Assembly (NCBI RefSeq): GCF_900176485.1
Contig: NZ_FWYD01000003.1
Coordinates: 434,001-498,000, forward strand
Origin: Primorskyibacter flagellatus
GTDB lineage: Bacteria; Pseudomonadota; Alphaproteobacteria; Rhodobacterales; Rhodobacteraceae
Direction of reading: 5' to 3'
Length of the DNA: 64,000 nt
The notes beneath the pieces are model-generated. The model made no database searches. It had not been told where the DNA came from and worked only from the letters and a program-made list of their open reading frames with translations. Shown here in pieces: positions 7,972-62,069 of this stretch (positions within the stretch are counted from its first letter, which is position 1; every line of letters starts with the position of its first letter). Made by a program: the position numbers and the translations under genes.

Positions 7972-8721
7972 ATGCATGTTGCCCCGATCCCAACCAAAAT
8001 GACGCCAAGGGCGCGCATCACACTAGAGGGCGTGTCTTATTCGCGAGACGGGCGCGAGGTGATCGCCAAGACCTTCCTGGACATATCTGATGCCCGGATC
8101 GGACTGGTGGGGCGAAACGGGTCTGGCAAAACCACGCTGGCGCGGATCCTTGCGGGACTTATTCGCCCGGATAGTGGCCGTGTTTTGATCAACGGGGTCG
8201 ATGTTGCGCGGGATCGCCGCGCCGCGATCCGGACTGTCGGCATATTGTTCCAGAACCCCGATCATCAGATTATTTTTCCGACGGTCGAAGAAGAGCTGGC
8301 TTTCGGTTTGCGGCAGCTTGGACGCAGCAAGGACGCAGCGCGGGACGGTGCAGTTGCGATGCTGGCGCGTTTTGGCAAGACGCATTGGCAGGGGCGTGCC
8401 GTCGCCACGCTGTCGCAGGGGCAGCGCCATCTGGTCTGCCTCATGGCGGTGCTGGCGATGGAGCCTGCGCTGATCATCCTTGATGAGCCCTTTACCGGGC
8501 TCGACATTCCGACCACGCGACAGATGCACCGCTACCTGACGCAGGTGGGGCCCTCCGTCCTTCACATCACCCATGATCCGGCGGCATTGGCGGGTTACGA
8601 TCGGGTGATCTGGATGGATAATGGGGCAATCCGCGAAAGCGGACCGGCAGTGCAGACCTTGACACTTTATGAGGCCGCAATGACGGAGGCGGACGATGCT
8701 GGCGCTGACCTCCTCGACTAG
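7972..8721 (+). CDS. bioM: biotin ECF transporter ATPase, BioM
   Basis: This 249-residue ABC ATPase powers biotin uptake as the A component of an energy-coupling-factor transporter. Walker A is GRNGSGKTT at about 48-56, the Q-loop FQNPDHQIIFPTVEEELAFG is of the EcfA type, the signature is LSQGQ and Walker B is LIILDEP, with the switch His in LHITHDP. The identity as BioM follows from its partners bioN and bioY directly downstream; it overlaps bioN by 26 bases. The ATG at 7972 is used, but the ATG at 7999 (MTPRARITLEG) is equally possible because neither has a strong ribosome binding site. Confidence 0.9.
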   Translation: MHVAPIPTKMTPRARITLEGVSYSRDGREVIAKTFLDISDARIGLVGRNGSGKTTLARILAGLIRPDSGRVLINGVDVARDRRAAIRTVGILFQNPDHQIIFPTVEEELAFGLRQLGRSKDAARDGAVAMLARFGKTHWQGRAVATLSQGQRHLVCLMAVLAMEPALIILDEPFTGLDIPTTRQMHRYLTQVGPSVLHITHDPAALAGYDRVIWMDNGAIRESGPAVQTLTLYEAAMTEADDAGADLLD

Positions 8722-11001: not shown

Positions 11002-12263
11002 GTCTGCGCCTTGAGCAGTTGGGACAGCGCGGTGATGTCGGTCTTGCCCGAAGGCAGGGTGGGCCAGTCCGTCAGTACGAAGGCGCGCCGTGGTGCGGCC
11101 TGCGGGGTAAGCTGGCGGCGACAGGCAGCCAGCACCGCGTCGGTATCAACACCCTGCGGCCCGGCGGACAGAAAGCAGACCGGCACCGCGCCGCGCTTGG
11201 CATCGGGGCGCGGCAGAACGGCCGCATGTGTTACGCCGGGCTGATCCAGCAGCACCCTCTCGATCAGTTCGGGAAAGACGTTTTGATCAGAAACGGTGAA
11301 CATCCGGTCGCGCCGCCCCGCCAGAAACAGATGCCCCTCGGGATCAAGCCATCCCAATTCGCCCACCGTCAGAAAACCGTCCTGCCAGCGGGTCTGTGCG
11401 CTGGTGCCCTGCGCATAACCCTCAAACAGATAGGGGCTCTGGACCCAAACCTCGCCGGGGTGATCCGGGGGCAGGTCGCGTGCCTGCTCATCACGGATGC
11501 GGATTTCGACGCCGGGATAGGCGCGACCGACCGAAAGGGGGGGCGTCGTGGCATCAGAGATTGCGATGAAGCTGGTTTCGCTTGCGCCGTAAAATGCGTG
11601 CAAGACCGCGCCGGGAAACAGTTGCGCTGAGGCATTGCGAGTGGCCTTGTCCAGAAAGCCGCCGCCGATCATGACGTGCCGGGTGCCGGGGATGCCGGTG
11701 CCGGCGTCGCAACACGCCGCAAGCTGACGCAATTGCGCGGGTGTGGCATATAATAGTGACGGCATTGCCGCGCGCAGCATTTGCAACCGCGTGTCAGGGC
11801 GGGGGGCTGTAAAGACGTCCACCTGCGCGCCCAGATGCACCGCCGAGACCGCACCATAGAGTGCCAGCGAGTGATTGAGTGGGCCAAAGACGGCGATGCG
11901 ATCCTGCGGCGTGATGTTCCAGAGCGCGCGATCCACCATGAAAGACCGGATCCAGGAGGCGTGGCTGCGACGGACCCGCTTGGGTTGCCCTGTAGAGCCG
12001 GAGGTTTCGCATTGCAGGAACGCACCTCCATCGGGCGTGGCAAGGGGGGCGGTGCCGGAATGGATGCAGAATTCCCGTCCGGTTTCTATTGCGGCCAGCA
12101 GTTGTGCCACGCAGGCCTCAACAGAATGTGCGGGAATCGTGGCCATCATTTCATCTGCGGGCAGAACCGCTGGTGTGATCGAGACACGGTTGACCCTGAT
12201 CTGACCGTCATAAGGGCGTCGGAAGGCTGCGGGATCCGCGCTGGCTGGGATGACTTGGCTCAA
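10998..12263 (-). CDS. AMP-binding acyl-CoA synthetase, BioY-linked (YhfT-like)
   Basis: This 421-residue adenylate-forming enzyme would activate a carboxylic acid to an acyl-AMP and then a CoA thioester. Visible motifs are the P-loop TSGSTGQPKRVRRSH, HAFYGASETSFIA, TVGELGWLDPEGHLFLAGRR and the C-terminal catalytic lysine region LPSGKTDI. It is shorter than usual (about 500-560 residues) because much of the N-terminal domain is missing, as in some specialised ligases. It is the first gene of the pair with the thiolase-family protein, convergent with bioMNY. The substrate is unknown; a medium-chain or pimelate-like acid is an inference from the biotin context. Confidence 0.88.
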   Translation of the reverse strand: MSQVIPASADPAAFRRPYDGQIRVNRVSITPAVLPADEMMATIPAHSVEACVAQLLAAIETGREFCIHSGTAPLATPDGGAFLQCETSGSTGQPKRVRRSHASWIRSFMVDRALWNITPQDRIAVFGPLNHSLALYGAVSAVHLGAQVDVFTAPRPDTRLQMLRAAMPSLLYATPAQLRQLAACCDAGTGIPGTRHVMIGGGFLDKATRNASAQLFPGAVLHAFYGASETSFIAISDATTPPLSVGRAYPGVEIRIRDEQARDLPPDHPGEVWVQSPYLFEGYAQGTSAQTRWQDGFLTVGELGWLDPEGHLFLAGRRDRMFTVSDQNVFPELIERVLLDQPGVTHAAVLPRPDAKRGAVPVCFLSAGPQGVDTDAVLAACRRQLTPQAAPRRAFVLTDWPTLPSGKTDITALSQLLKAQT

Positions 12264-12515
12264 ACTGTACCTTCACCTTCGTAAACTGGTGGGCTACCGG
12301 GCACGAATCTCTGTATTATCGCGCGTTTGTGGGAAATCCATCGCGCCCACCTGTCTGGCCCGCAAATGCCGTACTGGCTCCGGCCGTTTTACGAAGCACA
12401 AGGTCGCGGCACAAGCGCAGGTTTGGCCACGAGGCAACGTGCCGTGATGGCGGGCCTTGAAATCACCGCCCGCGCCGAGTATGTGCGTCGCGTCCGCAAT
12501 GAAAGTAGAACAGAC

Positions 12516-12713
12516 ATGGCCATGACCAACCCGCTTCAGTTTATCCAGCAGGTCCGCTCCGAAGTGGCCAAGGTGGTGTGGCCCACGCGCCGTGAGGTGA
12601 TGTTGACAACGGTGATGGTTTTCATCTTGGCTGCATTGACCGCTATTTTCTTTGCAATTGTGGATATTCTGATCCGCGGCGGGCTTCAGCAAGTGTTGGA
12701 AATGTTCGGCTAA
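12516..12713 (+). CDS. secE: preprotein translocase subunit SecE
   Basis: This 65-residue protein is the clamp subunit of the SecYEG channel. The amphipathic region NPLQFIQQVRSEVAKVVWPT and the invariant WPTRREV are present, followed by one transmembrane helix (about 29-52). The ATG at 12516 is chosen; another at 12522 is two codons on, and the long upstream frame has no family support. It heads the secE-nusG-rplK segment. The tRNA-Trp gene often found before secE in this order is not seen in the 252 bases upstream. Confidence 0.95.
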   Translation: MAMTNPLQFIQQVRSEVAKVVWPTRREVMLTTVMVFILAALTAIFFAIVDILIRGGLQQVLEMFG

Positions 12714-12932
12714 GCCTGTCGGGACCGCATAGGACATGCGCGCGCCCTGAGGCTTGAACTCGGTCTCTTTCGCGGGTATTGCGCAGACCAATCATCCGAA
12801 AGGCGTGCGGCGATTCGAGTTGCGCGCCGATTTTGTTTCGGAACGCGGCGGCTGCCGGTTTGAATATGGGCCGCCAGAAAATGGAACGACACACGGTCCC
12901 CGGATCGGTGCAGAACGAAGGTTTGTGACCAG

Positions 12933-13466
12933 ATGGCGAAACGGTGGTACTCGGTGAGCGTGCTCTCGAACTTCGAGAAGAAGATCGCCGAACAGATCCG
13001 GACTGCGGTTGATGAGCAAGGGCTTGAGGACCAGATCGAAGAAGTGCTGGTGCCGACCGAAGAGGTGATCGAGGTTCGTCGCGGCAAGAAAGTCACGACA
13101 GAACGGCGCTTCATGCCCGGCTATGTGCTTGTGCGGATGGAAATGTCGGATCAGGGCTATCACCTGATCAACTCCATCAACCGCGTGACCGGATTTCTGG
13201 GCCCGCAAGGACGCCCGATGCCGATGCGCGACGCCGAAGTGCAGGCGATTTTGGGTCGGGTGCAGGAAGGCGAGGATGCGCCGCGCACATTGATCCATTT
13301 CGAGATCGGCGAGAAGGTCAAGGTCAACGACGGCCCGTTCGAAGATTTCGACGGCATGATCGAGGAAGTCGACGAGGACAATCAGCGCCTCAAGGTTTCC
13401 GTCTCAATTTTTGGCCGGGAAACCCCGGTCGAACTGGAATTCACACAGGTGTCAAAGCAGGTGTGA
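12933..13466 (+). CDS. nusG: transcription antitermination factor NusG
   Basis: NusG binds RNA polymerase, limits pausing and couples transcription to ribosomes or Rho. The 177-residue product has the NGN domain ([20 protein letters not shown] through [11 protein letters not shown]) and the C-terminal KOW domain with [16 protein letters not shown] and [13 protein letters not shown]. The length is normal. It lies 219 bases after secE and 119 bases before rplK, an arrangement conserved in most bacteria. A short hairpin, GGAACC-CAT-GGTTCC, sits in the spacer to rplK at 13526-13540. Confidence 0.98.
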
Positions 13467-13585
13467 TGTTCGAGACGTGGGAGGTGAGGCGGCCCAAGGC
13501 CGACCAACCCCAACCACGGCAAAACGGAACCCATGGTTCCATTGCAGGGTGGGCAAGCCCCGCCGCTTGATAAAGGAGAGGCCAC

Positions 13586-14011
13586 ATGGCCAAGAAACTG
13601 GTTGGCAGTCTGAAGCTGCAAGTCCCCGCCGGGCAGGCAAACCCGTCGCCGCCCGTTGGCCCAGCATTGGGTCAGCGCGGGATCAACATCATGGAATTCT
13701 GCAAGGCGTTCAACGCCAAGACGCAGGAAATGGAGGCTGGTGCCCCCTGTCCGACGATCATCACGTATTATCAGGACAAATCCTTCACGATGGACATCAA
13801 GACGCCGCCCGCGTCTTATTACCTCAAGAAGGCCGCCAAGCTGAAATCCGGTGGCAGTACGCCCGGTCGCGCCACCGCAGGTTCGGTGACCGTCGCTCAG
13901 GTGAAAGAAATTGCCGAAGCGAAGATGAAAGATCTCAACGCCACGACGATTGAAAACGCGATGCAGATCATCCTGGGCTCTGCCCGGTCCATGGGCATCG
14001 AGGTGAAATAA
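13586..14011 (+). CDS. rplK: 50S ribosomal protein L11
   Basis: L11 forms the GTPase-associated stalk base with 23S rRNA and is needed for factor-dependent GTP hydrolysis and the stringent response. The 141-residue protein has the full family pattern: [32 protein letters not shown] and a C-terminal RNA-binding domain ending in [24 protein letters not shown] precedes the ATG. It is followed by rplA after one base, so the two are almost certainly translated together; L1 is the likely autoregulator of the pair, as in E. coli. Confidence 0.99.
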
Positions 14012-14012
14012 G

Positions 14013-14711
14013 ATGGCAAAACTTGGAAAACGTACCCGTACCGCGCGTGAAGCGCTTGTCGGCAAAGAGAACGTCACCGTCGAGGAAGCCGTTTCTCTGA
14101 TCAAGGCGAATGCCAACGCGAAATTCGACGAAACCGTCGAGATCGCGATGAATCTGGGCGTTGACACACGTCACGCTGACCAGATGGTTCGTGGTGTTAT
14201 CGGCCTGCCCAACGGCACCGGGAAAACCATGCGCGTTGCAGTCTTCGCACGCGGTGCCAAGGCTGAAGAAGCTGAAGCCGCCGGTGCTGACATCGTCGGT
14301 GCCGAAGACCTGATGGAAACCGTTCAGGGCGGCACGATCGAATTTGATCGCTGCATCGCCACACCGGACATGATGCCGATCGTCGGCCGTCTGGGCAAGG
14401 TGCTTGGCCCGCGTAACCTGATGCCGAACCCCAAGGTGGGCACGGTGACGATGGATGTCACGCAAGCCGTCAAGGACGCCAAGGGCGGTCAGGTTCAGTT
14501 CCGCGCTGAAAAGGGCGGCGTTGTGCATGCCGGCGTTGGCAAGGCATCGTTCGACGAAGCCAAGCTGGTCGAGAACATCCGGGCCTTCGTCAATGCAGTC
14601 TCCAAGGCTCGTCCTACGGGAGCCAAGGGCACCTATATGAAAAAGGTCTCGCTGAGCAGCACGATGGGACCGGGCGTTTCGGTCGCAATCGACTCTGCCA
14701 ACGCTGAATAA
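14013..14711 (+). CDS. rplA: 50S ribosomal protein L1
   Basis: L1 is the mobile L1-stalk protein that helps deacylated tRNA leave the E site and usually represses its own L11-L1 mRNA. The 232-residue product carries the expected [28 protein letters not shown]-like first domain, [20 protein letters not shown] and the terminal [15 protein letters not shown]. Length is normal for the family. A strong hairpin terminator follows 20 bases after the stop, separating this pair from rplJL-rpoBC. Confidence 0.99.
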
Positions 14712-53822: not shown

Positions 53823-53982
53823 GCGGCGGTTCAGCGGGGCCGTCGAGGCGTCGTGACGGTGCCGCTGTGAGCACTTCCTGCCGATCAACCGTCGTGGACT
53901 TGTGCGAACACCCCTGACGAACTCAAACGACGAAGTGCCAATTAGCCCCGGTTCGCGTGCACCGACCCAGCCGGGATTCTTT

Positions 53983-54597
53983 TTACGACGGCTTGTCGTG
54001 TTCGATTGGCAAGGCTTCGTAGGCTTCGATTTGCCAACCGCCCTGATAGTTCTTCACCAAGCCGTCTTGCGGAAGGTCCATGCTGCCAATCGCAGCAACT
54101 TGACCCAAGCACCGGCTAAGGTGCGCACGCAAAACTTCCAGCGCGTCAAAGTAGGCTTCCCGAATGTCGGGCGGGCGGTAGAATTCCCCGAAACGGGGGT
54201 GCGGCGGCGCATCGTCAGACCTGTTAAGTAGTTCTTCGTAGGTAAGGAATTGCCGAATGCCTAGCGCCATGACGTCTACAAGCAGGTAAAGCGAACCGTC
54301 TTGTAGGTCGGCAAGTTCAACCTGCTTATCTACCAGAATGCCGCGTATCTCACGAAGCGAAATCAGCGCATTATCAATGCAGCCGTCGCAGCATTCCCAA
54401 GCAGAAAGCACGCGTCTGTCAGCGAGTCGAATGACAAGTTCCCGCGCAACCTGCCGTTCCTTGTCCTTCGGGTTCACCGCAATGCTGACGAAGGGAAGGT
54501 TCAAGGTTACGCCGCCAACATGCTTGGTGTAGCGTTGGCGGGCGCGGCCCAAAACTTCCGTCATGTCGAAGCGAAATGGTATCTTGCCGGTTCTCAT
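53983..54597 (-). CDS. uncharacterised 204-residue protein
   Basis: I do not recognise this protein. It reads MRTGKIPFRFDMTEVLGRAR, has a mostly helical middle (WECCDGCIDNALISLREIRG) and several charged regions. No signal peptide or transmembrane helix is seen. It lies between aapJ and the left att site of the element, on the minus strand, flanked by lower-GC spacers, so it is accessory and may derive from an earlier insertion. No ribosome binding site is obvious. Confidence 0.5.
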   Translation of the reverse strand: MRTGKIPFRFDMTEVLGRARQRYTKHVGGVTLNLPFVSIAVNPKDKERQVARELVIRLADRRVLSAWECCDGCIDNALISLREIRGILVDKQVELADLQDGSLYLLVDVMALGIRQFLTYEELLNRSDDAPPHPRFGEFYRPPDIREAYFDALEVLRAHLSRCLGQVAAIGSMDLPQDGLVKNYQGGWQIEAYEALPIEHDKPS

Positions 54598-54791
54598 GTC
54601 GTAGGCTTACTGCATTCGGCGAACAAACGCAGCCCACATAAAGAACCAAGTGCGACATGCGGTCACGCCTTCGTGAGCGTTTAGCGATGCTTTCGGGGGC
54701 CGTTTGGTGCCTTCAAATCCTTAGACAATGCTTACCCAGAGCGGACAGCTGGGGATCTTATCCAGTAAATCCAGCAACTCACAAGGAAAAG

Positions 54792-54806
54792 TGGCAGCCC
54801 GTAGGG
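54792..54806. other. attL core
   Basis: TGGCAGCCCGTAGGG is identical to the last 15 bases of the tRNA-Glu gene on the minus strand (61995-62009). The preceding bases CAAGGAAAAG resemble CAAGAAAAA at the other end. Confidence 0.75.
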
Positions 54807-54894
54807 CCGCCATAGGTATTTCCGGCATTGTCCGCTACCTACCGCATAAGCCTATAAAATAAAGAATATTTTCTCTTTCATCGTCCAGCATAAT

Positions 54895-54949
54895 CCGGCA
54901 TATTCCTAGTTAATCCGCAGTAAGGTGGGGGATATGTTGGGGGATATGA
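54895..54949. repeat. left arm-type repeats of the integrase
   Basis: CCGGCATATTCC, AATCCGC and AAGGTGGGGGATAT followed by TTGGGGGATAT recur in the same order and direction at 61898-61949. Such tandem TGGGGG repeats often flank tyrosine-integrase att sites and probably bind the integrase arm domain. Confidence 0.6.
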
Positions 54950-54950
54950 T

Positions 54951-56267
54951 ATGGCAGGCGCTGGAATCCGAAAGCCGCAAAACTCTCTGACCGCACGTTT
55001 CGTGGAAACAGTGACGGAGCCGGGAAAGCACTTTGATGGGCATGGCCTTTTTCTTCGCGTGCGTCCGAACGGTGCGAAGCAATGGGTGCAGCGCATCACC
55101 ATCCGCGGCAAGCGTAGCGAAATCGGATTGGGCAGCCCCCCGGCTATATCGCTGGCGGTGGCGCGCAAGTTGGCACTCGAAAACCGGGGTAAGGCCATGC
55201 TGGGCGGCGATCCGCTGGCAGAAAGGCGGGCGGCGCGTGAAGCGTTGACCTTTGCGCAGACCGTCGAAGCTTATGCCGCCGTAAAGCTTAAAGAGTTTAA
55301 GAGTGAGAAGCATCGTAAGCAGTGGCTGTCATCAATCGAGCGTCTGGCGTTCCCTGCCTTAGCTGACATTCTGGTGCGCGATATAGATGTTGCGGACATT
55401 TTGCGGATGCTTGAACCGCATTGGCGCGAAAGAACGGTGACGGCGAAAAAGCTGCGCGGACGCGTGGAAGCTATCCTGAACTGGGCGACCGTCTCGGGGC
55501 ACCGCACTGGCGACAACCCCGCGCGCTGGGGTGGGAACCTTAAGGAACTGTTGCCCGCACCCGGCAAGGTGACGCAGGTGCAGAACCAACCCGCATTGGC
55601 GCTGGGCGACGTTGCGGACTGGTGGGCTGCGCTTGAAAGACGCGACGGCATGGCCGCGAAGGCATTGCAATTCTTGACGTTGACCGCTGCACGCTCGGGA
55701 GAAGTGCGCGGCATGACATGGGATGAAATCGACTTCGGCGCGAAAAGTGCAATCAGGACCACCCCCGTTGCGACACTTGCGACTTCTGCGACATGGACCA
55801 TTCCGGCCTCGCGGATGAAAGGGGGCCGGGAACATCGCGTGGCGCTGACGCCCGAGGCGGTGGCTATTCTGCAAGGTCTGCCCCGGATGGAAGATTCGCC
55901 TTTCGTGTTTTTTGCTCCGCGCGGCGGGATGCTGTCAGATATGTCCATTTCCGCAGTCATGCGGCGGATGCAGGAAAGCGAAGTGAAGGCGGGGCGCGCG
56001 GGCTACCTTGATCCGCGCAACAAGCGCCCGGCAGTGCCGCATGGGCTACGCTCAACCTTCCGACAATGGGCGGCGGAACAAGGCTATCCGCGTGATATGG
56101 CAGAAGTCGCACTAGCGCATTTCATCGGCTCGGATGTGGAGCGCGCCTATCAACGCAGCGACATGCTGGAACGGCGGCGGGCGATGATGTCTGCGTGGGC
56201 TGGATTTTTGCGAGGCGATAAGGTTGTGGCAACTGGCAATATTGTGAAGATGGGGTATGCGCCATGA
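54951..56267 (+). CDS. tyrosine-type site-specific integrase
   Basis: This 438-residue integrase belongs to the P4-like group with an N-terminal arm-binding domain. Catalytic residues are Arg248 (TAARSGE), His364 and Arg367 (HGLRSTF), His390 (ALAHFIG) and Tyr400 (ERAYQRSD), so the enzyme should be active. Between WDEIDFGAK and WTIPASRMKGGREHRV lies an extra stretch of about 16 residues (TTPVATLATSAT) encoded by three 9-bp GCGAC repeats, absent from most relatives. The ATG at 54951 is followed closely by the conserved region. Its stop overlaps the next gene by 4 bases. Confidence 0.95.
   Translation: MAGAGIRKPQNSLTARFVETVTEPGKHFDGHGLFLRVRPNGAKQWVQRITIRGKRSEIGLGSPPAISLAVARKLALENRGKAMLGGDPLAERRAAREALTFAQTVEAYAAVKLKEFKSEKHRKQWLSSIERLAFPALADILVRDIDVADILRMLEPHWRERTVTAKKLRGRVEAILNWATVSGHRTGDNPARWGGNLKELLPAPGKVTQVQNQPALALGDVADWWAALERRDGMAAKALQFLTLTAARSGEVRGMTWDEIDFGAKSAIRTTPVATLATSATWTIPASRMKGGREHRVALTPEAVAILQGLPRMEDSPFVFFAPRGGMLSDMSISAVMRRMQESEVKAGRAGYLDPRNKRPAVPHGLRSTFRQWAAEQGYPRDMAEVALAHFIGSDVERAYQRSDMLERRRAMMSAWAGFLRGDKVVATGNIVKMGYAP
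55770..55793. repeat. three GCGAC iterons inside the integrase gene
   Basis: GCGACACTT, GCGACTTCT and GCGACATGG are 9-base direct repeats in frame with the coding sequence, giving ATLATSAT. The same motif recurs at 60241-60264 and, inverted, at 60288-60311. Confidence 0.75.
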
Positions 56268-57013
56268 TGCTGAAAAACCACCGTCCAGCATGCCATGATG
56301 CCATCGCTTCCATTTTCCCTGAACTAGCAGAACAGCAAGTTGAGATGCTCGCAGAGCGGCTCTTTACGGCGTATAGCATGGGGCGAATTCAGCACTGGGA
56401 AGTCGTCAATGCAAAATCGCCAGAGGGAGAGGCGTCTGACCTACGAAAAGCAGCGAGCTATTTGCGGAAAGCAGCTGCATGCGTGCGAGGTGATAAGGAT
56501 GGTCCTCGCGGAGGTGGTTTTGGCGCTGGTGACGAATTGCGGATGTTTGCCTATGACCTGCTCGCGGCATGGGGCGATGCTCCAACCTTAGCAGCTCATC
56601 TTCCAGAAGGTAGCCAGTTGATGGCCCGTCACTCGCTTTTAGACAAACTTGAAACCATAGCCACGGTAGCCGGAACCTTGGAGTGGCAAGCAAACGCTTT
56701 GGATGCCGCAGGCATCGCTATCGGAAAGAACTCGGATGGTGTCCGCGAGAGAATCAAGTCGACCGGAAATATTGTGAATGGAAACAAAGGCAAAAATATC
56801 CTCGCGCATAGAGTGGCGACTGAATGCTGCGTTATTGTTGCTGCGGTAACTGGAGAGCCGGCAACATTGGGCCGCAATCCAGTGACAGGTGAAACAACCG
56901 GTCAGCTCTATAAACTTGTGCGCGCAGCCTACTGTGCACTGGAAATAGATGCATCGCCTGCGGATATGGCAAAAGCGGCTCAGAAAAGAATGAAATTTGC
57001 CCCCGTATCTTAA
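56264..57013 (+). CDS. unknown protein coupled to the integrase
   Basis: This 249-residue protein starts inside the integrase stop (ATGA) and should be made with it. It is mostly helical, including FPELAEQQVEMLAERLFTAY and the charged middle SEGEASDLRKAASYLRKAAA, with no signal peptide or transmembrane segment. I do not recognise a family and see no nuclease or phosphatase motif. Base composition looks lower in GC than in its neighbours. Candidate roles are integration control or defence against other phages, both speculative. Confidence 0.65.
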   Translation: MMLKNHRPACHDAIASIFPELAEQQVEMLAERLFTAYSMGRIQHWEVVNAKSPEGEASDLRKAASYLRKAAACVRGDKDGPRGGGFGAGDELRMFAYDLLAAWGDAPTLAAHLPEGSQLMARHSLLDKLETIATVAGTLEWQANALDAAGIAIGKNSDGVRERIKSTGNIVNGNKGKNILAHRVATECCVIVAAVTGEPATLGRNPVTGETTGQLYKLVRAAYCALEIDASPADMAKAAQKRMKFAPVS

Positions 57014-57115
57014 CGGGGAAATGTCTGTAATTTACCCCCATTCACCCCGTATGACTACTTAGGCGAAATGCCCGACCTTCCGGATTGCAACATCTGCAAC
57101 CGAAAGGAACCGACA

Positions 57116-57301
57116 ATGGCCGAAAAACTAATCCGACGCCCCGAGGTGGAAGCCCGCACTGGGCTTTCCCGCTCGACCATTTACGATTGGATGAAACGCG
57201 GCGAATTTCCGCAGCCCGTGAAGCTGGGCGCACGCCTTGTGGCGTGGCGCGAAAGCGACGTGACCGCGTGGCTTGAAGCCCGCGAAACGAAGGTCGCTTG
57301 A
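57116..57301 (+). CDS. alpA: AlpA-like excisionase/regulator
   Basis: This 61-residue helix-turn-helix protein has the AlpA wording IRRPEVEARTGLSRSTIYDW and MKRGEFPQPVKLGARLVAWR followed by SDVTAWLEARE. In P4 and related satellites AlpA activates or aids excision. GAAAGGAA lies 7 bases before the ATG at 57116; a 16-codon extension from 57068 is less likely. It is followed after one base by the winged-helix gene. Confidence 0.9.
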   Translation: MAEKLIRRPEVEARTGLSRSTIYDWMKRGEFPQPVKLGARLVAWRESDVTAWLEARETKVA

Positions 57302-57302
57302 T

Positions 57303-57710
57303 ATGAGCGGCGGAAACGAAGTGGCCCGGAACCTGTTGGCGCAGGAACCGGGCCGGGATTATCGCCATGCAAATGCGGCTGACATCCCGAACATAGCACC
57401 GCAAAAGCGCAAACGCCACAATTCCGGCACGTTCTATCGCGTCACGCCCAGCACAGGCGATCCGTTTCGCATCGTGGTGACGGGCCGCGACCGCTGGGCG
57501 CTCGAAGAACTGCGTCGCGTTGGGGCCAAAGGCTGCACGCCCATCGACAACCCTGCGCCGCGCTGGAGCGCCTATGTGTTCAACTTGCGCGCACTCGGGC
57601 TGGACATCGAAACCGTCACTGAACCGCATGGCGGCGATTACGCCGGACATCACGGGCGCTATGTGCTGCGCTCTGGCGTCACCCTCGACTGGAAAGGGGG
57701 TGCGGCATGA
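57303..57710 (+). CDS. winged-helix domain protein
   Basis: This 135-residue protein has a conserved central region GTFYRVTPSTGDPFRIVVTG, RDRWALEELRRVGAKGCTPI and NPAPRWSAYVFNLRALGLDI, a pattern that looks like the small winged-helix proteins carried by roseobacter integrative elements. DNA binding is therefore likely but unproven. The ATG at 57303 directly follows the alpA stop. Its last four bases overlap the next frame. Confidence 0.7.
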   Translation: MSGGNEVARNLLAQEPGRDYRHANAADIPNIAPQKRKRHNSGTFYRVTPSTGDPFRIVVTGRDRWALEELRRVGAKGCTPIDNPAPRWSAYVFNLRALGLDIETVTEPHGGDYAGHHGRYVLRSGVTLDWKGGAA

Positions 57711-57805
57711 ATCGTCTGCAAATTGCCTTTTTGATGCGGGCGCATGGTTTGACCGAAGCGCAGGCGCACGCGCTGGCCGTCCTGATCTGGGGGGCGATGC
57801 AATGA
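57707..57805 (+). CDS. 32-residue micro-protein
   Basis: The frame MNRLQIAFLMRAHGLTEAQA continues with HALAVLIWGAMQ. It starts in the stop of the winged-helix gene and its own stop overlaps the primase start, both as ATGA. Hydrophobic and helix-forming, it could be a coupling peptide or a short regulator. The two overlaps support translation, though the function is unknown. Confidence 0.55.
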   Translation: MNRLQIAFLMRAHGLTEAQAHALAVLIWGAMQ

Positions 57806-58689
57806 GGGATGCACGCGACCTGACACTTGCGCTGGGCGGCAAGTGGTATCGCAGCTACGGGGCGGCACCTTGCCCCGTATGCCAGCCCGAGCGCGAAAAG
57901 CGCCAGAACGCCCTGACCTTGGGTGATGGCCGCAATGGGCGGCTGCTGCTGGATTGCAAGAAATCGGCTTGTGCTTTCACGGATATTCTGGCGGCGACGG
58001 GGCTGCGCTCGGGGGATTACACGCCCCCGGACGCGGCAACGCTGGCCCAGCGCGACGCGGAACAGCGGGCCGAGGCGGTCAAACGTGCGGCGCAAGCCAA
58101 ACAGGTTTGGCAGGACGCCCAGCCCATCGGCGGCACGCTGGCCGAAACCTATCTACGCAAAGCACGGGGCATCACTTGCGACCTGCCCCGCACCCTGCGC
58201 TTTCACGGCTCCTGCTGGCACGGGCCGACCGCGAAGCGGCATCCCGCGTTGGTGGCGGCGGTGCAGGGCGCGGATGGGGCTTGCGTGCATCGCACCTACC
58301 TGCGCGCCGATGGCACGGGCAAGGCTGCGATTGACCCGGCAAAGATGATGCTGGGCGGGGCTGCTGGCGGCGCTGTCAGGCTCATGGATGGGGCGGGGCC
58401 GTTGGTGGTGACCGAAGGCATAGAAACCGCCTTGAGCCTTGCCTCTGGCCTGTTGCGTGGGCCTGCGACCGTCTGGGCGGCGCTGTCAACATCCGGCATC
58501 CGCGCCCTGCACCTGCCGGATACACCAAAGCGGCTGACCATCGCCCCCGATGGCGACACGGCAGGCCGTGAAGCTGCAAACGCATTGGCGGCACGCGCGC
58601 ACGCGCTGGGCTGGCAGGTATCGCTCTTGCCTGCCCCCGATGGCCGCGACTGGAACGACATTCTGACAAAGAAAGGGGAAACCGCATGA
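57802..58689 (+). CDS. Toprim-domain primase-like protein
   Basis: This 295-residue protein has a CHC2-like zinc module (Cys24, Cys27, Cys52, Cys57 in CPVCQPE and CKKSACAF), a linker, and a Toprim domain with Glu205 in VVTEGIETALSLASG and Asp250/Asp252 in APDGDTAGREA. These are the hallmarks of DnaG-like primases of phage and satellite replication modules. The start overlaps the micro-protein stop (ATGA) and the end overlaps the next gene (ATGA). It would prime replication of the excised element. Confidence 0.85.
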   Translation: MRDARDLTLALGGKWYRSYGAAPCPVCQPEREKRQNALTLGDGRNGRLLLDCKKSACAFTDILAATGLRSGDYTPPDAATLAQRDAEQRAEAVKRAAQAKQVWQDAQPIGGTLAETYLRKARGITCDLPRTLRFHGSCWHGPTAKRHPALVAAVQGADGACVHRTYLRADGTGKAAIDPAKMMLGGAAGGAVRLMDGAGPLVVTEGIETALSLASGLLRGPATVWAALSTSGIRALHLPDTPKRLTIAPDGDTAGREAANALAARAHALGWQVSLLPAPDGRDWNDILTKKGETA

Positions 58690-60182
58690 CCGCGCCCCAA
58701 GCTATCCGATACAACCCCGAAGGACCGCAACCGCTGGTGCGCGACATTGCGCCCGGTGCCGCCTATCCCGTTCACGCGCTCGGGCCGTTGCGCGGGGCTG
58801 TCGAAGCGGTGCAGGGCATCACGCAAGCCCCGGTGGCAATCCCGGCGCAATCGGCTTTGGCCGTGGCATCCTTAGCGGTGCAGGGCTTTGCAGATGTGGA
58901 CACGCTGGGCGGGCCGCGTCCCTTGGCGCTCTATGCTTTGACGATGGCGCTAAGCGGCGAACGCAAATCAGCCTGCGACGCGCCGCTGATGGCGGCGCTG
59001 CGTGACCATGAACGCGAACAGGCGAAAGCCCAGCGCGACAATATGCAAAGCTGGGCCAATGCACATGCGCTCTGGAAAGGGGAGCGCGACCGCATCCTTG
59101 CCGAAGCCAAAAAGGGCAAGGGCGAAAAGCGCACTGCTGCACAAGCCGACCTTGAAGCCCTGGGCGCAGAACCCGACGCGCCCCCATCGGCTGACCGCAC
59201 CGTGTCGGAACCGACCTTTGAAGGGCTGACCAAACTATTCGCAACCGGCCAACCCAGTCTTGGCCTTTTCTCGGATGAAGGCGGGCAATTTCTGGGCGGG
59301 CACGCCATGAATAGCGACAACAGGCAAAAGACGCTGGCGGCATTGAATGACCTTTGGCAAGGCAATCCGATAAGGCGCACGCGCGCAGGCGATGGGCACG
59401 CAACGCTTTATGGGCGGCGGCTGGCGGTGCATCTGATGGTGCAGCCGACCGTGGCGCGTAGCTTCATGGCCGACCCGCTGGCAGCCGATACCGGCTTTCT
59501 GCCCCGGTTCCTGATGTGCGAACCGCCCAGCGCCATTGGCACACGGATGCAGGCAACCGCGCGGCGCGATGATAGGGCATTGGCAGGCTTTGCGGGGCGG
59601 CTGCACGACATTCTCGACACGCCCCTGCCGATGGATGAAGAAACCCGCGAACTGCAACCGCGCAGCCTTGGCCTTGCCCCTGACGCCCGCACGCTACTGG
59701 CGGGATTTGCCGATGCAATCGAAGCGGCGCAAGCCCCCGGCGGCGACTTGGCGCATATCACCGGCACCGCATCCAAGGTGGCGGAACAGGCGGCGCGCAT
59801 CGCAGGCGTGCTGACCCTCTGGCCCGATCTGGACGCGCAGGCCGTGAAAGCCGAAACGATGGCCGACGCGATAACGCTGGCGCAATTCTATTTGTCCGAA
59901 GCGTCACGGCTTGCCAGCGCCGCGACCGTATCGGCGGAAATCGACAAGGCCGAGGCGCTGCGCAAATGGCTGCTGGAAAGCTGGCCGCATCCTGACGTGA
60001 TGGCGCGGGATGTGGTCAGGCTCGGACCGAACCCTTTGCGCGAAAGCCCGAAGGCACGGGCGGCGCTGGGCATCCTTGAGAAGCATGGATGGCTTGTGCG
60101 GCTGGATGCGGGCGCAGTGGTGCGGGGGGCCGCACGGGCCGAGGCGTGGCATATCGTGCTGGGTGACAGCGATGTGGTTTGA
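58686..60182 (+). CDS. DUF3987/YfjI-type replicative ATPase
   Basis: This 498-residue protein resembles the YfjI/DUF3987 group found beside Toprim primases in satellites and conjugative elements. It contains a degenerate nucleotide-binding loop (ALSGERKSACD), GLFSDEGGQFLGG and LYGRRLAVHLMVQPTVARSF, then a C-terminal basic part. It would act as the helicase or loader partner of the primase. It starts inside the primase stop and is followed by an overlapping gene. Confidence 0.8.
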   Translation: MTAPQAIRYNPEGPQPLVRDIAPGAAYPVHALGPLRGAVEAVQGITQAPVAIPAQSALAVASLAVQGFADVDTLGGPRPLALYALTMALSGERKSACDAPLMAALRDHEREQAKAQRDNMQSWANAHALWKGERDRILAEAKKGKGEKRTAAQADLEALGAEPDAPPSADRTVSEPTFEGLTKLFATGQPSLGLFSDEGGQFLGGHAMNSDNRQKTLAALNDLWQGNPIRRTRAGDGHATLYGRRLAVHLMVQPTVARSFMADPLAADTGFLPRFLMCEPPSAIGTRMQATARRDDRALAGFAGRLHDILDTPLPMDEETRELQPRSLGLAPDARTLLAGFADAIEAAQAPGGDLAHITGTASKVAEQAARIAGVLTLWPDLDAQAVKAETMADAITLAQFYLSEASRLASAATVSAEIDKAEALRKWLLESWPHPDVMARDVVRLGPNPLRESPKARAALGILEKHGWLVRLDAGAVVRGAARAEAWHIVLGDSDVV

Positions 60183-60519
60183 TGCAAGCGCCGCTTTATC
60201 GGAACTCGGGGAGGGGCGCGAAAGTGACGCCCCGCCCCCTGCGACAATCGCGACATCTGCGACACACGCCCAGCGCCCGGCTTTGATTGTCGCAAATGTC
60301 GCAAGTGTCGCAACGCCCCCGGCGCAGAACCGCGAATCTGATGCGTTCCGGCATGGCGCATCTGTCACCGGGGATCCACGCACTTGGACAGGCCGTGTCG
60401 TGTCTCTGGCAGATTGGCGCAGGCTGACCGAGTGGGAAAAGCACGGGCCGGATGGACGGCACTGGTGCGGTATCGCGCGGGCTTGGGTTCAACCGAAAGG
60501 ACAAGACAATGGCGAATGA
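60172..60519 (+). CDS. unknown protein carrying iteron-encoded repeats
   Basis: This 115-residue protein overlaps the DUF3987 gene by 11 bases and the following gene by 11 bases. Its N-terminal half is low complexity and is encoded largely by the iterons (residues TIATSATH and VANVASVATPP). The C-terminal half, VVSLADWRRLTEWEKHGPDG followed by HWCGIARAWVQ, looks more ordered. I recognise no family. The iterons may serve as DNA signals within the gene. Confidence 0.55.
   Translation: MWFDASAALSELGEGRESDAPPPATIATSATHAQRPALIVANVASVATPPAQNRESDAFRHGASVTGDPRTWTGRVVSLADWRRLTEWEKHGPDGRHWCGIARAWVQPKGQDNGE
60241..60311. repeat. inverted pair of iteron triplets
   Basis: Three direct GCGAC-type iterons (60241-60264) face three inverted ones (60288-60311), with a 23-base centre. 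The inverted set, read on the other strand, nearly matches the integrase-gene iterons. They lie within the 115-residue gene. Confidence 0.75.
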
Positions 60520-61057
60520 CCTCGACAAACCGAAGAAATCGGCTGCAAAGATGCAGGAACGCGAACCGCCCGCGATGGCCTTGGAATGGGGGGCCGACAA
60601 CGTGCTTCAAATCAACGCGCGTGGCGACTTCGACAGGGTTCTGACGTCAGCACCGAACGCAGCCATGCAAAGCGAATGGCTTGGCCAAATGGCGAAATTG
60701 GGGTCGCAAAGCAGGCGCACCGATGAAAGCGCATCCAACTTTGCACTGGGTTTCGTGGATGCAATGCAGCCCAAAGATGCAGCGGAATTGCTGCTGACAA
60801 CGCAGATGGCAGCCATTCACCAAGCGACAATGATGCTAGCGCGGCGGTTGAACCATGTTGACAACATCCCGCAACAGGATGCTGCCGAACGCGCGCTGAA
60901 CAAGCTGGCACGCACCTTTGCGGCACAGATGGACACGCTCAAAAGGTATCGTTCCAAAGGGCAACAGACTGTGCGGGTTGAGCGTGTCACGGTGGAAAGC
61001 GGCGCGCAGGCGGTGGTCGGCAACGTCAACCAAGGGGGACGGAGCGGAAATGACTAG
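60509..61057 (+). CDS. unknown 182-residue element protein
   Basis: It starts MANDLDKPKKSAAKMQEREP with GAAAGGACAAGACA upstream and is mostly helical: SNFALGFVDAMQPKDAAELL, TQMAAIHQATMMLARRLNHV and LNKLARTFAAQMDTLKRYRS. A Val/Gly-rich tail (VRVERVTVESGAQAVVGNVN) closes it. No signal peptide or transmembrane segment. Function unknown; it is the last gene of the plus-strand replication block. Confidence 0.65.
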   Translation: MANDLDKPKKSAAKMQEREPPAMALEWGADNVLQINARGDFDRVLTSAPNAAMQSEWLGQMAKLGSQSRRTDESASNFALGFVDAMQPKDAAELLLTTQMAAIHQATMMLARRLNHVDNIPQQDAAERALNKLARTFAAQMDTLKRYRSKGQQTVRVERVTVESGAQAVVGNVNQGGRSGND

Positions 61058-61075
61058 CGCAAGACGCTGAACCCG

Positions 61076-61510
61076 TCATTCGCAAGTTGCTTTGTATGCT
61101 GCTACCTTTGGCAAAATCGGGCCGAGTTTGTTTCTGCTCCACGCTAATATTTTGTCTTTAAAATCAAAGGTATAAATATCGACATAGGCCGCGCCGAATG
61201 CGCCAACGGTCAACATGCCAGGACTGTCTAACAACGGTATCACTCTCGCACCATCCTGTCGGTAGCCATAAGAACCAACGCTATCATCAAAGAGAATATC
61301 CCATTCATCGCCATAACGTACGAGAATGATTTTGCCTGTGGATATGCTGTCCTTTGTCCAGTTGGGCCCATTGGGATTCGTAGTTTCGTCCTTGAAATGG
61401 AAAGCGTGACCACTCGACGCCCCGCAGCGTAAAATGACGCCTTCCTGTTGCTGCGCCAAAGCAGATTGTGAGATTAATATGAAAGCAATAAAAATTCTAA
61501 GTAGGTGCAT
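61076..61510 (-). CDS. small secreted protein, element cargo
   Basis: This 144-residue protein has a signal peptide (MHLLRIFIAFILISQSALAQ) and a mature part opening ILRCGASSGHAFHFKDE, with YVDIYTFDFKDKILAWSRNK near the end. Two cysteines (first and last in CGASSG and KATCE) could form a disulfide. Similar proteins occur as cargo in alphaproteobacterial mobile elements, with no known function. It is on the minus strand, converging on the plus-strand block. Confidence 0.65.
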   Translation of the reverse strand: MHLLRIFIAFILISQSALAQQQEGVILRCGASSGHAFHFKDETTNPNGPNWTKDSISTGKIILVRYGDEWDILFDDSVGSYGYRQDGARVIPLLDSPGMLTVGAFGAAYVDIYTFDFKDKILAWSRNKLGPILPKVAAYKATCE

Positions 61511-61606
61511 AAAATCGGCCCCGTTAACATTCCGGCTAGACAATTATTATCACTTCACCAAGTTGCCAGTGTCTACCGATGAAAAAACCACGGGGGAGGG
61601 GCGGCA

Positions 61607-61870
61607 ATGAAACAGGACGCTTACCCCATGCACCGTGCGCCACGATGCTCTGCGAAGTCAAAACGCACCGGTTTACCGTGCAGAAGCCCGGCGGTACGCG
61701 GCTGGGCGGTATGCCGGATGCACGGTGCGGGCGGCGGTGCGAACCCCGGCAAGGCACATCCCAATTATCAGCATGGCGAGCGCAGCCGCGAATCCGCAGC
61801 CATTCGTGCTTTTGTGAACGCTCTTGCGCGGGAAGGTCGGGACACCAGTCAAAGACTGACGGATGATTAA
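61607..61870 (+). CDS. small cysteine-containing element protein
   Basis: This 87-residue protein has RCSAKSKRTGLPCRSPAVRG followed by WAVCRMHGAGGG and KAHPNYQHGERS, a Cys/His pattern seen in short prophage and satellite proteins that are thought to bind zinc. GGGGAGGGG precedes the ATG. Function unknown. A later ATG at 61628 is also possible. Confidence 0.6.
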   Translation: MKQDAYPMHRAPRCSAKSKRTGLPCRSPAVRGWAVCRMHGAGGGANPGKAHPNYQHGERSRESAAIRAFVNALAREGRDTSQRLTDD

Positions 61871-61897
61871 GACTGCCCGATGAGGCGTCGCCTTGTT

Positions 61898-61949
61898 CCG
61901 ACATATTCCGCGACAATCCGCTGCAAGGTGGGGGATATAGTGGGGGACG
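61898..61949. repeat. right arm-type repeats of the integrase
   Basis: CCGACATATTCC, AATCCGC and AAGGTGGGGGATATAGTGG follow in the same order as at 54895-54949, with direct TGGGGGA repeats. It lies 46 bases from the right att core. Confidence 0.6.
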
Positions 61950-61994
61950 CGCTTTCTGTTTAGGTAGAAAAATCAACTACTTAAGCAAGAAAAA

Positions 61995-62009
61995 TGGCAG
62001 CCCGTAGGG
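61995..62009. other. attR core within tRNA-Glu
   Basis: This is the last 15 bases (3' end) of the tRNA-Glu gene, which the element keeps intact. The displaced copy is at 54792-54806. Confidence 0.75.
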
Positions 62010-62069
62010 GAATCGAACCCCTCTTTCCAGGTTGAAAACCTGGCGTCCTAACCGATAGACGAACGGGCC
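61995..62069 (-). tRNA. tRNA-Glu (anticodon UUC)
   Basis: The 75-base gene folds into a full cloverleaf with CCA encoded. The acceptor stem starts GGCCCGT and pairs with ACGGGCT (one G-U), the anticodon stem is CCAGG/CCTGG and the loop TTTTCAA gives anticodon UUC at 62036-62034. The T-arm contains GGGGTTCGATTCCCC. It marks the right end of the integrated element. Confidence 0.95.

Follow-up and report, generated by a model that had tools for sequence, protein, structure and literature searches.

What kind of element has entered the tRNA-Glu gene of Primorskyibacter flagellatus, and how could so small an insertion replicate? Both questions are raised by the stretch of DNA analysed here, 64,000 nucleotides of contig NZ_FWYD01000003.1 (positions 434,001 to 498,000 of the forward strand; hereafter the window, whose own numbering is used for its features). 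Between two copies of the 3′ end of the tRNA gene lies an insertion with genes for a tyrosine integrase (int), the regulator AlpA, a winged-helix protein, a Toprim protein and a member of the DUF3987 family, which an initial annotation had described as a satellite or small mobile replicon. It is probably a PICMI-like, tRNA-targeting phage satellite whose helicase recognizes the iterons of the origin from which the element replicates. New in this proposal are a candidate iteron origin behind the DUF3987 gene and a predicted rule by which the helicases of DUF3987 elements would recognize it.

The insertion and its family

The tRNA-Glu(ttc) gene called by ARAGORN on the minus strand (61995-62069) is the only tRNA gene of the window, and it is kept intact. 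A 15-base repeat of its 3′ end had been reported to flank about 7.2 kb, and the repeat is exact: the terminal 15 bp of the gene lie at 61995-62009, the tRNA-side attachment (att) core, and again at 54792-54806, the distal att core, 7,203 bp from start to start and with ten open reading frames (ORFs) between them. No further copy occurs in the 64 kb even allowing up to 2 mismatches, and shuffled sequences gave a mean of 0.10 matches, two being reached in 1 of 100.

Relatives of this arrangement were collected through DUF3987, which was matched (E up to 0.001, each count including P. flagellatus itself and some partial matches) in 20 of 194 host relatives, 14 of 385 sampled genomes of the class and 57 of 390 of the order, so that many hosts are possible. 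The 121 loci examined comprise the window, 17 loci from relatives, the best 80 of the 187 loci that a scan of species genomes yielded and 23 from a scan of viral contigs; without 3 duplicates and the 23 viral loci, 95 bacterial loci are left, among which L118 and L179 form a further pair with an identical DUF3987 end. A direct repeat of at least 12 bp that includes a tRNA 3′ end, with DUF3987 between its copies, is present in 53 of these 95 loci and at none of the 23 viral ones. Nine tRNA types are used (Ser 26, Thr 6, Leu 6, Arg 5, Glu 3, Asn 3, Val 2, Phe 1 and Ala 1), and the 53 elements measure 5.6-15.6 kb, with a median of 9.0 kb. Searches by tblastn (E 1e-4) match DUF3987 in all 53, int in 50 and Toprim in 49, together with the products of orf7 (24), orf8 (14), the HGGxSTG-like gene (21), orf9 (2) and orf2 (1, the window element itself). 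All 53 elements keep the gene order seen in the window among those genes that they have, and in 49 of the 50 with an int match, int occupies the tRNA-distal end. Most relatives belong to Rhodobacterales, some to Sphingomonadales and other groups; the closest one found among the best 80 of 187, from Sedimentitalea nanhaiensis, is at tRNA-Arg, with 91% identity in DUF3987 and 78% in int, and two others (L125, from Rhodobacter aestuarii, and L170) are at tRNA-Glu with recJ homology in the locus, like the window element. Following the int, Toprim and DUF3987 set across relatives, a check suggested by the initial annotation, has in this way revealed a shared core at varying tRNA sites and no fixed unrelated positions. 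Membership of the window element in a large, mobile alphaproteobacterial family is well supported by these comparisons.

Just inside the element ends lie the two copies of a 51-bp repeat, 82% identical (54894-54944 and 61897-61947, both on the plus strand), which are candidate integrase arm sites; a 10-mer is shared between both ends in 33 of the 53 elements, as compared with 3 of 265 shuffles. The sequence TGGGGGWA, tried as a general arm motif, was rejected, being present at both ends in 5 of the 53 elements only.

A comparison with unoccupied tRNA-Glu sites, also suggested at the outset, was answered in part. Among 30 recJ loci, tRNA-Glu is in the fetched stretch of 26 and the exact 15-base core in 10, P. 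flagellatus included, which means that the predicted core recurs in 9 of the 29 other loci. No empty site matching both flanks was obtained: the stretch to the left of 54792 is not near the tRNA in six relatives, nor at 29 other abc-gene loci, and searches with the joined flanks, the left-flank protein and the nearby stretches of the six relatives yielded no clean empty site. Twenty genomes of the comparison (G001-G020) have no DUF3987 match. The DNA between an amino-acid transporter gene and the distal att core (53823-54791), which contains a 204-aa ORF, does not occur beside that gene in the relatives' loci, and the neighbourhood differs from that of the same-genus genome.

A probable phage satellite

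All ten proteins of the window element were searched in Pfam, PHROGs, NCBIfam and PADLOC (E up to 0.1). The initial annotation had listed an integrase, AlpA, a winged-helix protein, Toprim and DUF3987 plus five unknown or small genes, and Pfam matches above cut-off uphold the five names. On the plus strand, the integrase (54951-56267, 438 aa; PF13356, PF22022, PF00589) is followed by orf2 (56264-57013, 249 aa, without known family), AlpA (57068-57301, with an alternative ATG at 57116; PF05930, E 3e-21), the HTH_91 winged-helix protein (57303-57710, 135 aa; PF22324, E 5e-36), the DUF7146/Toprim protein, which matches a DnaG-like primase part (57802-58689; PF23639, PF13362 (Toprim_3) and the DNA primase phrog_510), and DUF3987 (58686-60182; PF13148, E 9e-92).

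This layout is that of an experimentally tested phage satellite. According to passages of the paper on the PICMIs of Vibrio (PMC10803314), these satellites carry int, an overlapping gene, alpA and prim in this order, their excision needs the first three and their replication needs prim, and the model used to search for them takes DUF3987 as prim. The window element likewise has int, AlpA and a DUF3987-type prim side by side, and it shares with what those passages describe an ATGA-overlapping gene, a gene between alpA and prim, a length of about 7 kb, the absence of a capsid-remodelling gene and, in its family, defence cargo. PICMIs are presented there as inserted at fis and complete in Vibrio only, whereas the alphaproteobacterial family targets the 3′ ends of tRNA genes, encodes Toprim separately, often exceeds PICMIs in size and includes some members with a capsid or small terminase (TerS) gene. 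In the window, the TGA of int overlaps the ATG of orf2 by four bases (56264-56267), orf2 thus taking the place that iolg has in PICMIs, and the same ATGA overlap occurs in 16 of the 50 elements with an int match, 15 of which open an ORF of at least 177 aa. If any start codon overlapping the int stop by four bases is accepted, the count rises to 31 of 50 (22 of the 31 opening at least 50 aa), a looser figure that carries little weight, since chance alone places A, G or T before a TGA stop in three cases out of four; the argument therefore rests on the ATGA cases. Among the remaining elements, an ORF of at least 70 aa starts near the int stop in 13 and none does in 6.

The cargo of the relatives points to phages as well. 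It was assessed on 134 representatives drawn from the 479 ORFs of the 53 elements, which stand for the 31 non-core clusters with at least two members and for 103 singletons out of 137, the remainder being six clusters of core genes and 34 singletons that were short or weak; the family tallies cover the 25 most frequent families per library and are lower bounds. Among the matches listed are restriction enzymes (type IIG, type III and ISP) and proteins of the anti-phage systems Thoeris, Septu and MADS, along with transposases and one phage cement protein. Capsid genes occur in 2 of the 53 elements and TerS genes in 3, so that at least 4 elements carry packaging genes: a 9-kb relative at tRNA-Asn (L113) has both a major capsid and a small terminase gene (12254-14160 of that locus), L040 has a capsid gene, and the small terminase gene of L117 is closely related to one in L114. 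The cargo tally also counts a second member of the TerS family phrog_83.

In the window element itself, the initial annotation had seen no capsid, terminase or lysis gene, and no capsid, portal, large-terminase or lysis family is listed for its ten proteins in the four libraries. Hints of a small terminase are weak: the HGGxSTG-like protein matches the TerS model phrog_10899 with E 0.016, too little to claim such a role, and AlpA resembles two TerS models, phrog_24579 (E 0.0026) and phrog_57 (E 0.016), but scores far better as an AlpA/excisionase protein.

Other known systems are less close. The initial annotation had compared the element with P4-like and PICI-like satellites, a comparison now superseded, PICMI being closer than P4 or the classical PICIs. 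With the P4-like elements described in part in PMC8628076 it shares int, AlpA and a replication module of its own; no psu, sid or delta family appears among its ten proteins at E up to 0.1, a search that a highly diverged version could escape. A likeness to capsid-carrying cfPICIs is seen in L040 and L113, which have a major capsid gene, L113 also TerS, and the difference is that the window element has no capsid or portal family; the few neighbours of the two capsid genes that were scanned singly gave no other head family. In the E. coli YfjI element (L228), AlpA and the DUF3987 protein YfjI are near each other, the helicase being about 29% identical. Charybdis elements of marine archaea were considered as a match and set aside, since in the portion of the source available they are about 4.6 kb long and have neither helicase nor primase. 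In the open-access literature, subscription papers and most preprints being outside this scope, DUF3987 and satellites are combined only in the Vibrio PICMI paper; none of the open-access titles among the matches listed for satellites in Rhodobacterales or Alphaproteobacteria describes the family, nor is it one of those named in a review passage on known satellite families. As a provisional statement, tRNA-targeting PICMI-like elements of this kind are apparently an undescribed family.

The main competitor is an integrative mobilizable element, or an autonomous replicon inserted at a tRNA, which would spread by conjugation or natural transformation without particles and would use its origin and helicase to raise its copy number after excision. 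The window element has no capsid and no clear TerS, packaging genes were identified in only 4 of the 53 elements, and a coupling protein of a type IV secretion system is found in 1 of the 134 cargo representatives. The Toprim protein even matches part of a TraI relaxase/helicase model (profile positions 1658-1865 of 1960), with 60.9 bits for a cut-off of 929.85, which is read as the Toprim/primase-like region of that model. No relaxase or mobilization family is matched above cut-off by the ten window proteins, however, and the PICMI layout and the anti-phage cargo of the relatives also speak for a satellite, which makes a mobilizable element fairly unlikely.

Several observations weigh against a PICMI-like satellite, among them the conjugation coupling protein just mentioned. 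AlpA, required for PICMI excision, has a tblastn match in just 37 of the 53 elements, and HTH_91 in 23. Neither a helper phage nor induction has been seen, and neither a circular form of the element nor its DNA in particles. A terminal direct repeat of at least 15 bp is absent from five whole viral contigs (L081, L086, L089, L090 and L101) among the 10 viral stretches checked, out of 23 viral loci. The same-genus genome G001 has no DUF3987, but its tRNA-Glu neighbourhood differs, and for this reason it provides no clean empty site. A candidate helper was sought in the P. flagellatus genome through HK97-type capsids, the only type searched, and was rejected, since the one capsid of this type lies in what looks like the cluster of a gene transfer agent. 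On balance, of the two halves of the initial description, mobility is borne out by the 53 of 95 loci at nine tRNA types, and the satellite half is plausible, given the PICMI layout, the packaging genes of at least 4 of 53 elements and the anti-phage cargo. By analogy with PICMIs, a phage-satellite nature is likely. We infer helper dependence and packaging from this likeness: the 15-bp cores and the end repeats would be the sites of Int action, an infecting phage would switch on AlpA, which together with Int and the orf2 product would excise the element, and the element DNA would end up in the particles of the helper.

A candidate origin behind the DUF3987 gene

A clue to replication comes from the heptamer TGCGACA, which is concentrated in the first 200 bp downstream of the DUF3987 stop codon (144 matches in 94 loci, or 7.8 per kb); across the other 200-bp bins out to 6 kb its density peaks at 0.63 per kb, so that the enrichment exceeds 10-fold. 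In the window, the heptamers form two inverted arrays of three copies each with 9-bp spacing (60240-60264 and 60288-60312, within the frame of orf7), and the exact tandem is found in the P. flagellatus genome in this element only. When any heptamer is allowed, a pair of inverted arrays with 9-bp spacing appears in 59 of 91 loci (one of them, L039, a self-complementary artefact), as compared with 1 of 182 shuffles and 0-1.3% of the windows at nine control offsets. Copies agree inside one element, and the consensus varies among elements, with TGCGACA, TGCTACA, TGCTAAT, TGCTATT and others. The inverted array (60240-60312) is a candidate replication origin.

Some elements have further heptamers far from this site. 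Among the 38 elements assigned to a heptamer class, 13 contain 15 tandems of their own class elsewhere, 11 of them inside int, and other-class tandems number 3. The clusters inside int are all on the int strand and at two places, about 600 and 970 bp from its end; that of the window element has three heptamers with 9-bp spacing (55769-55793, plus strand). Such a cluster would be a control site or an accessory origin site. Replication of P4 requires two separated sites, ori and crr, which the array and the int cluster resemble.

The protein that could act on these sites is DUF3987 itself. Its AlphaFold2 model (predicted local distance difference test, pLDDT, 84; predicted template modelling score, pTM, 0.81) aligns over residues 33-408 with MCM helicases, the top match being 7plo_6 (Z 17.0 over 259 residues, root-mean-square deviation 3.5); the best E of Foldseek is 2.8e-3, and a comparison with PDB sequences was uninformative (best E 0.36). 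An MCM-like helicase is predicted on this basis, followed by a C-terminal winged helix that is read from the secondary structure of the model and that may bind the iterons. A precedent exists in SaPI Rep and SCCmec Cch2, whose C-terminal domain, in the part of PMC7581432 considered, recognizes repeats directly downstream of its own gene. The DUF3987-array arrangement would therefore be of a known kind, an initiator helicase with repeats just behind its gene, in another helicase family and with another repeat; that part of the source gives no comparable residue-base rule.

Covariation between the helicase and its repeats

In the 57 loci with a consensus, base 4 of the heptamer (G or T) tracks residue 445 of DUF3987, and base 6 tracks residue 441. 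Arg or Asn at 445 goes with G at base 4 and Gln with T, and Arg441 goes with C at base 6. Both residues (codons 441-445 at 60006-60020) lie one turn apart on a helix of the model, 440-446. A scan residue by residue singles out 445 for base 4, with 49 of 51 loci explained, a runner-up at 38 and a median of 27; for base 6, residue 441 scores 45, with a runner-up at 42 and a median of 32.

The prediction from residue 445 was fixed before a test on 75 held-out unique loci outside the rule set (131 being unique among 170), in which the criterion for calling an array was weaker and asked for two phased heptamers, of any of six patterns, within one arm (background 0 of 1,500 shuffles and 6 of 351 control windows). 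An array was present in 51 of the 75, base 4 was predicted in 44 of 45 scorable loci and base 6 in 41 of 41, and in the stronger arrays of at least 3 copies the figures were 33 of 34 and 31 of 31. Assigning each locus the bases of its nearest training locus, by residues 12-405, was right for each of the two bases in 32 of 51. No overall probability is attached to the covariation, since the sequences are related and so not independent of one another.

An explanation that needs no DNA recognition is the exchange, as a block, of the 3′ end of DUF3987 with the adjoining array. The two codons are only about 220-310 bp from the array, and the whole C-terminal region tracks the heptamer class, nearest neighbours agreeing in class at 0.91 for residues 434-483 and 0.81 for the entire protein. 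A block, however, would not be expected to single out one residue as base 4 does, the margin being small for base 6, nor to keep the rule in held-out loci less than 60% identical to all training loci, several of them viral (18 of 19 for base 4, 15 of 15 for base 6). Among pairs at least 80% identical over residues 12-405, all 118 that differ in base 4 also differ at residue 445, which differs in 31 of the 154 pairs with the same base. Parsimony on a tree of the N-terminal domain requires 21 changes of base 4 and 24 of residue 445, and 27 for the two jointly, when 200 shuffles of residue 445 never gave fewer than 43. Arg-G and Gln-A are, moreover, usual chemical pairings. Taken together, these points make block exchange quite improbable.

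An inverted array directly behind a gene might, instead of being an origin, terminate transcription or act as an RNA hairpin, since its complementary arms could form a long hairpin. Such a structure does not explain the direct 9-bp periodicity within each arm, the covariation with helicase residues or the clusters inside int, which have a single orientation and cannot pair with each other, and it is improbable as the role of the array.

Other results count against an origin read by the helicase. No array was found in 32 of 91 loci by the first criterion, nor in 24 of the 75 held-out loci by the weaker one, and the one E. coli YfjI tested has no such array. The full heptamer was predicted in 33 of 41 held-out cases. 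Four training loci combine Arg445 with T and one Gln445 with G, and one held-out locus has Asn445 with T at base 4. The covarying residues lie on the helix preceding the one usually called the recognition helix. Neighbours also agree in class to some extent for Toprim (0.70, p 0.009) and, less clearly, for int (0.67, p 0.06), so part of the class signal is shared ancestry. HTH_91, AlpA and orf7, examined as alternative readers of the iterons, show class agreement at chance and were rejected.

Even so, it is probable that in satellites and phages alike the DUF3987 helicase recognizes its origin by a code of two residues (residues 441 and 445 for bases 6 and 4), with origin-specificity classes arising by repeated switching and with an accessory site in int. 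We infer DNA binding and origin function from the covariation and the position of the array: the winged helix of DUF3987 would bind the inverted heptamers behind its own gene, and the helicase would load there and unwind the DNA, the Toprim protein acting as primase. With this rule, the C-terminal domain of DUF3987 gains a suggested function, and origin recognition by the helicase family becomes directly testable with oligonucleotides. If true, specificity classes would let several related satellites share one cell.

The rule extends to viral contigs, several of which obey it (among L082-L100, where 11 of 19 are phage-sized, at 40-48 kb). These contigs, with a distant DUF3987 and in several cases relatives of int, AlpA and Toprim, might suggest that the window element is a decayed prophage keeping its early genes for integration and replication, a very improbable origin given that its core ORFs are open and that core order is kept in 53 of 53 elements (median 9.0 kb) of many genera with their att cores retained.

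Remaining genes and minor observations

Five genes of the element, orf2, orf7, orf8, orf9 and the HGGxSTG-like gene, have no Pfam match above cut-off. The frame of orf7 (60172-60519, plus strand, 115 aa, 36 relatives) crosses the iteron array. The orf8 product (60509-61057, plus strand, 182 aa) is mostly helical in a good AlphaFold2 model (pLDDT 80) and has no assigned function; the model has no match in BFVD at E up to 0.001 and matches helical hairpins only among PDB structures, the best E against PDB sequences being 0.21. Cargo without assigned function is represented by orf9 (61076-61543, minus strand, 155 aa), with 2 relatives. The HGGxSTG-like protein (61607-61870, plus strand, 87 aa) scores 25.7 bits with NF041373, below the cut-off of 29, and has 30 tblastn relatives. 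Its gene and orf8 often recur together in relatives, and in L133 the orf8 frame extends into a tail similar to HGGxSTG proteins, which suggests that the two proteins form a functional pair.

A 24-bp leader, 88% identical in its two copies, precedes the internal start of alpA (57097-57120) and the start of orf8 (60490-60513), and is possibly a translation or regulatory signal. A second element of P. flagellatus (L268, about 9-15.3 kb) is found at tRNA-Ser(tga), with int 37%, Toprim 64% and DUF3987 24% identical to those of the window element, transposase-like ORFs nearby and a 9-bp inverted array of its own with another sequence. On the 1.7-Mb replicon pTAV4 of Paracoccus versutus (L227), an unannotated DUF3987 relative lies after position 8497, with a 9-bp inverted array behind it.

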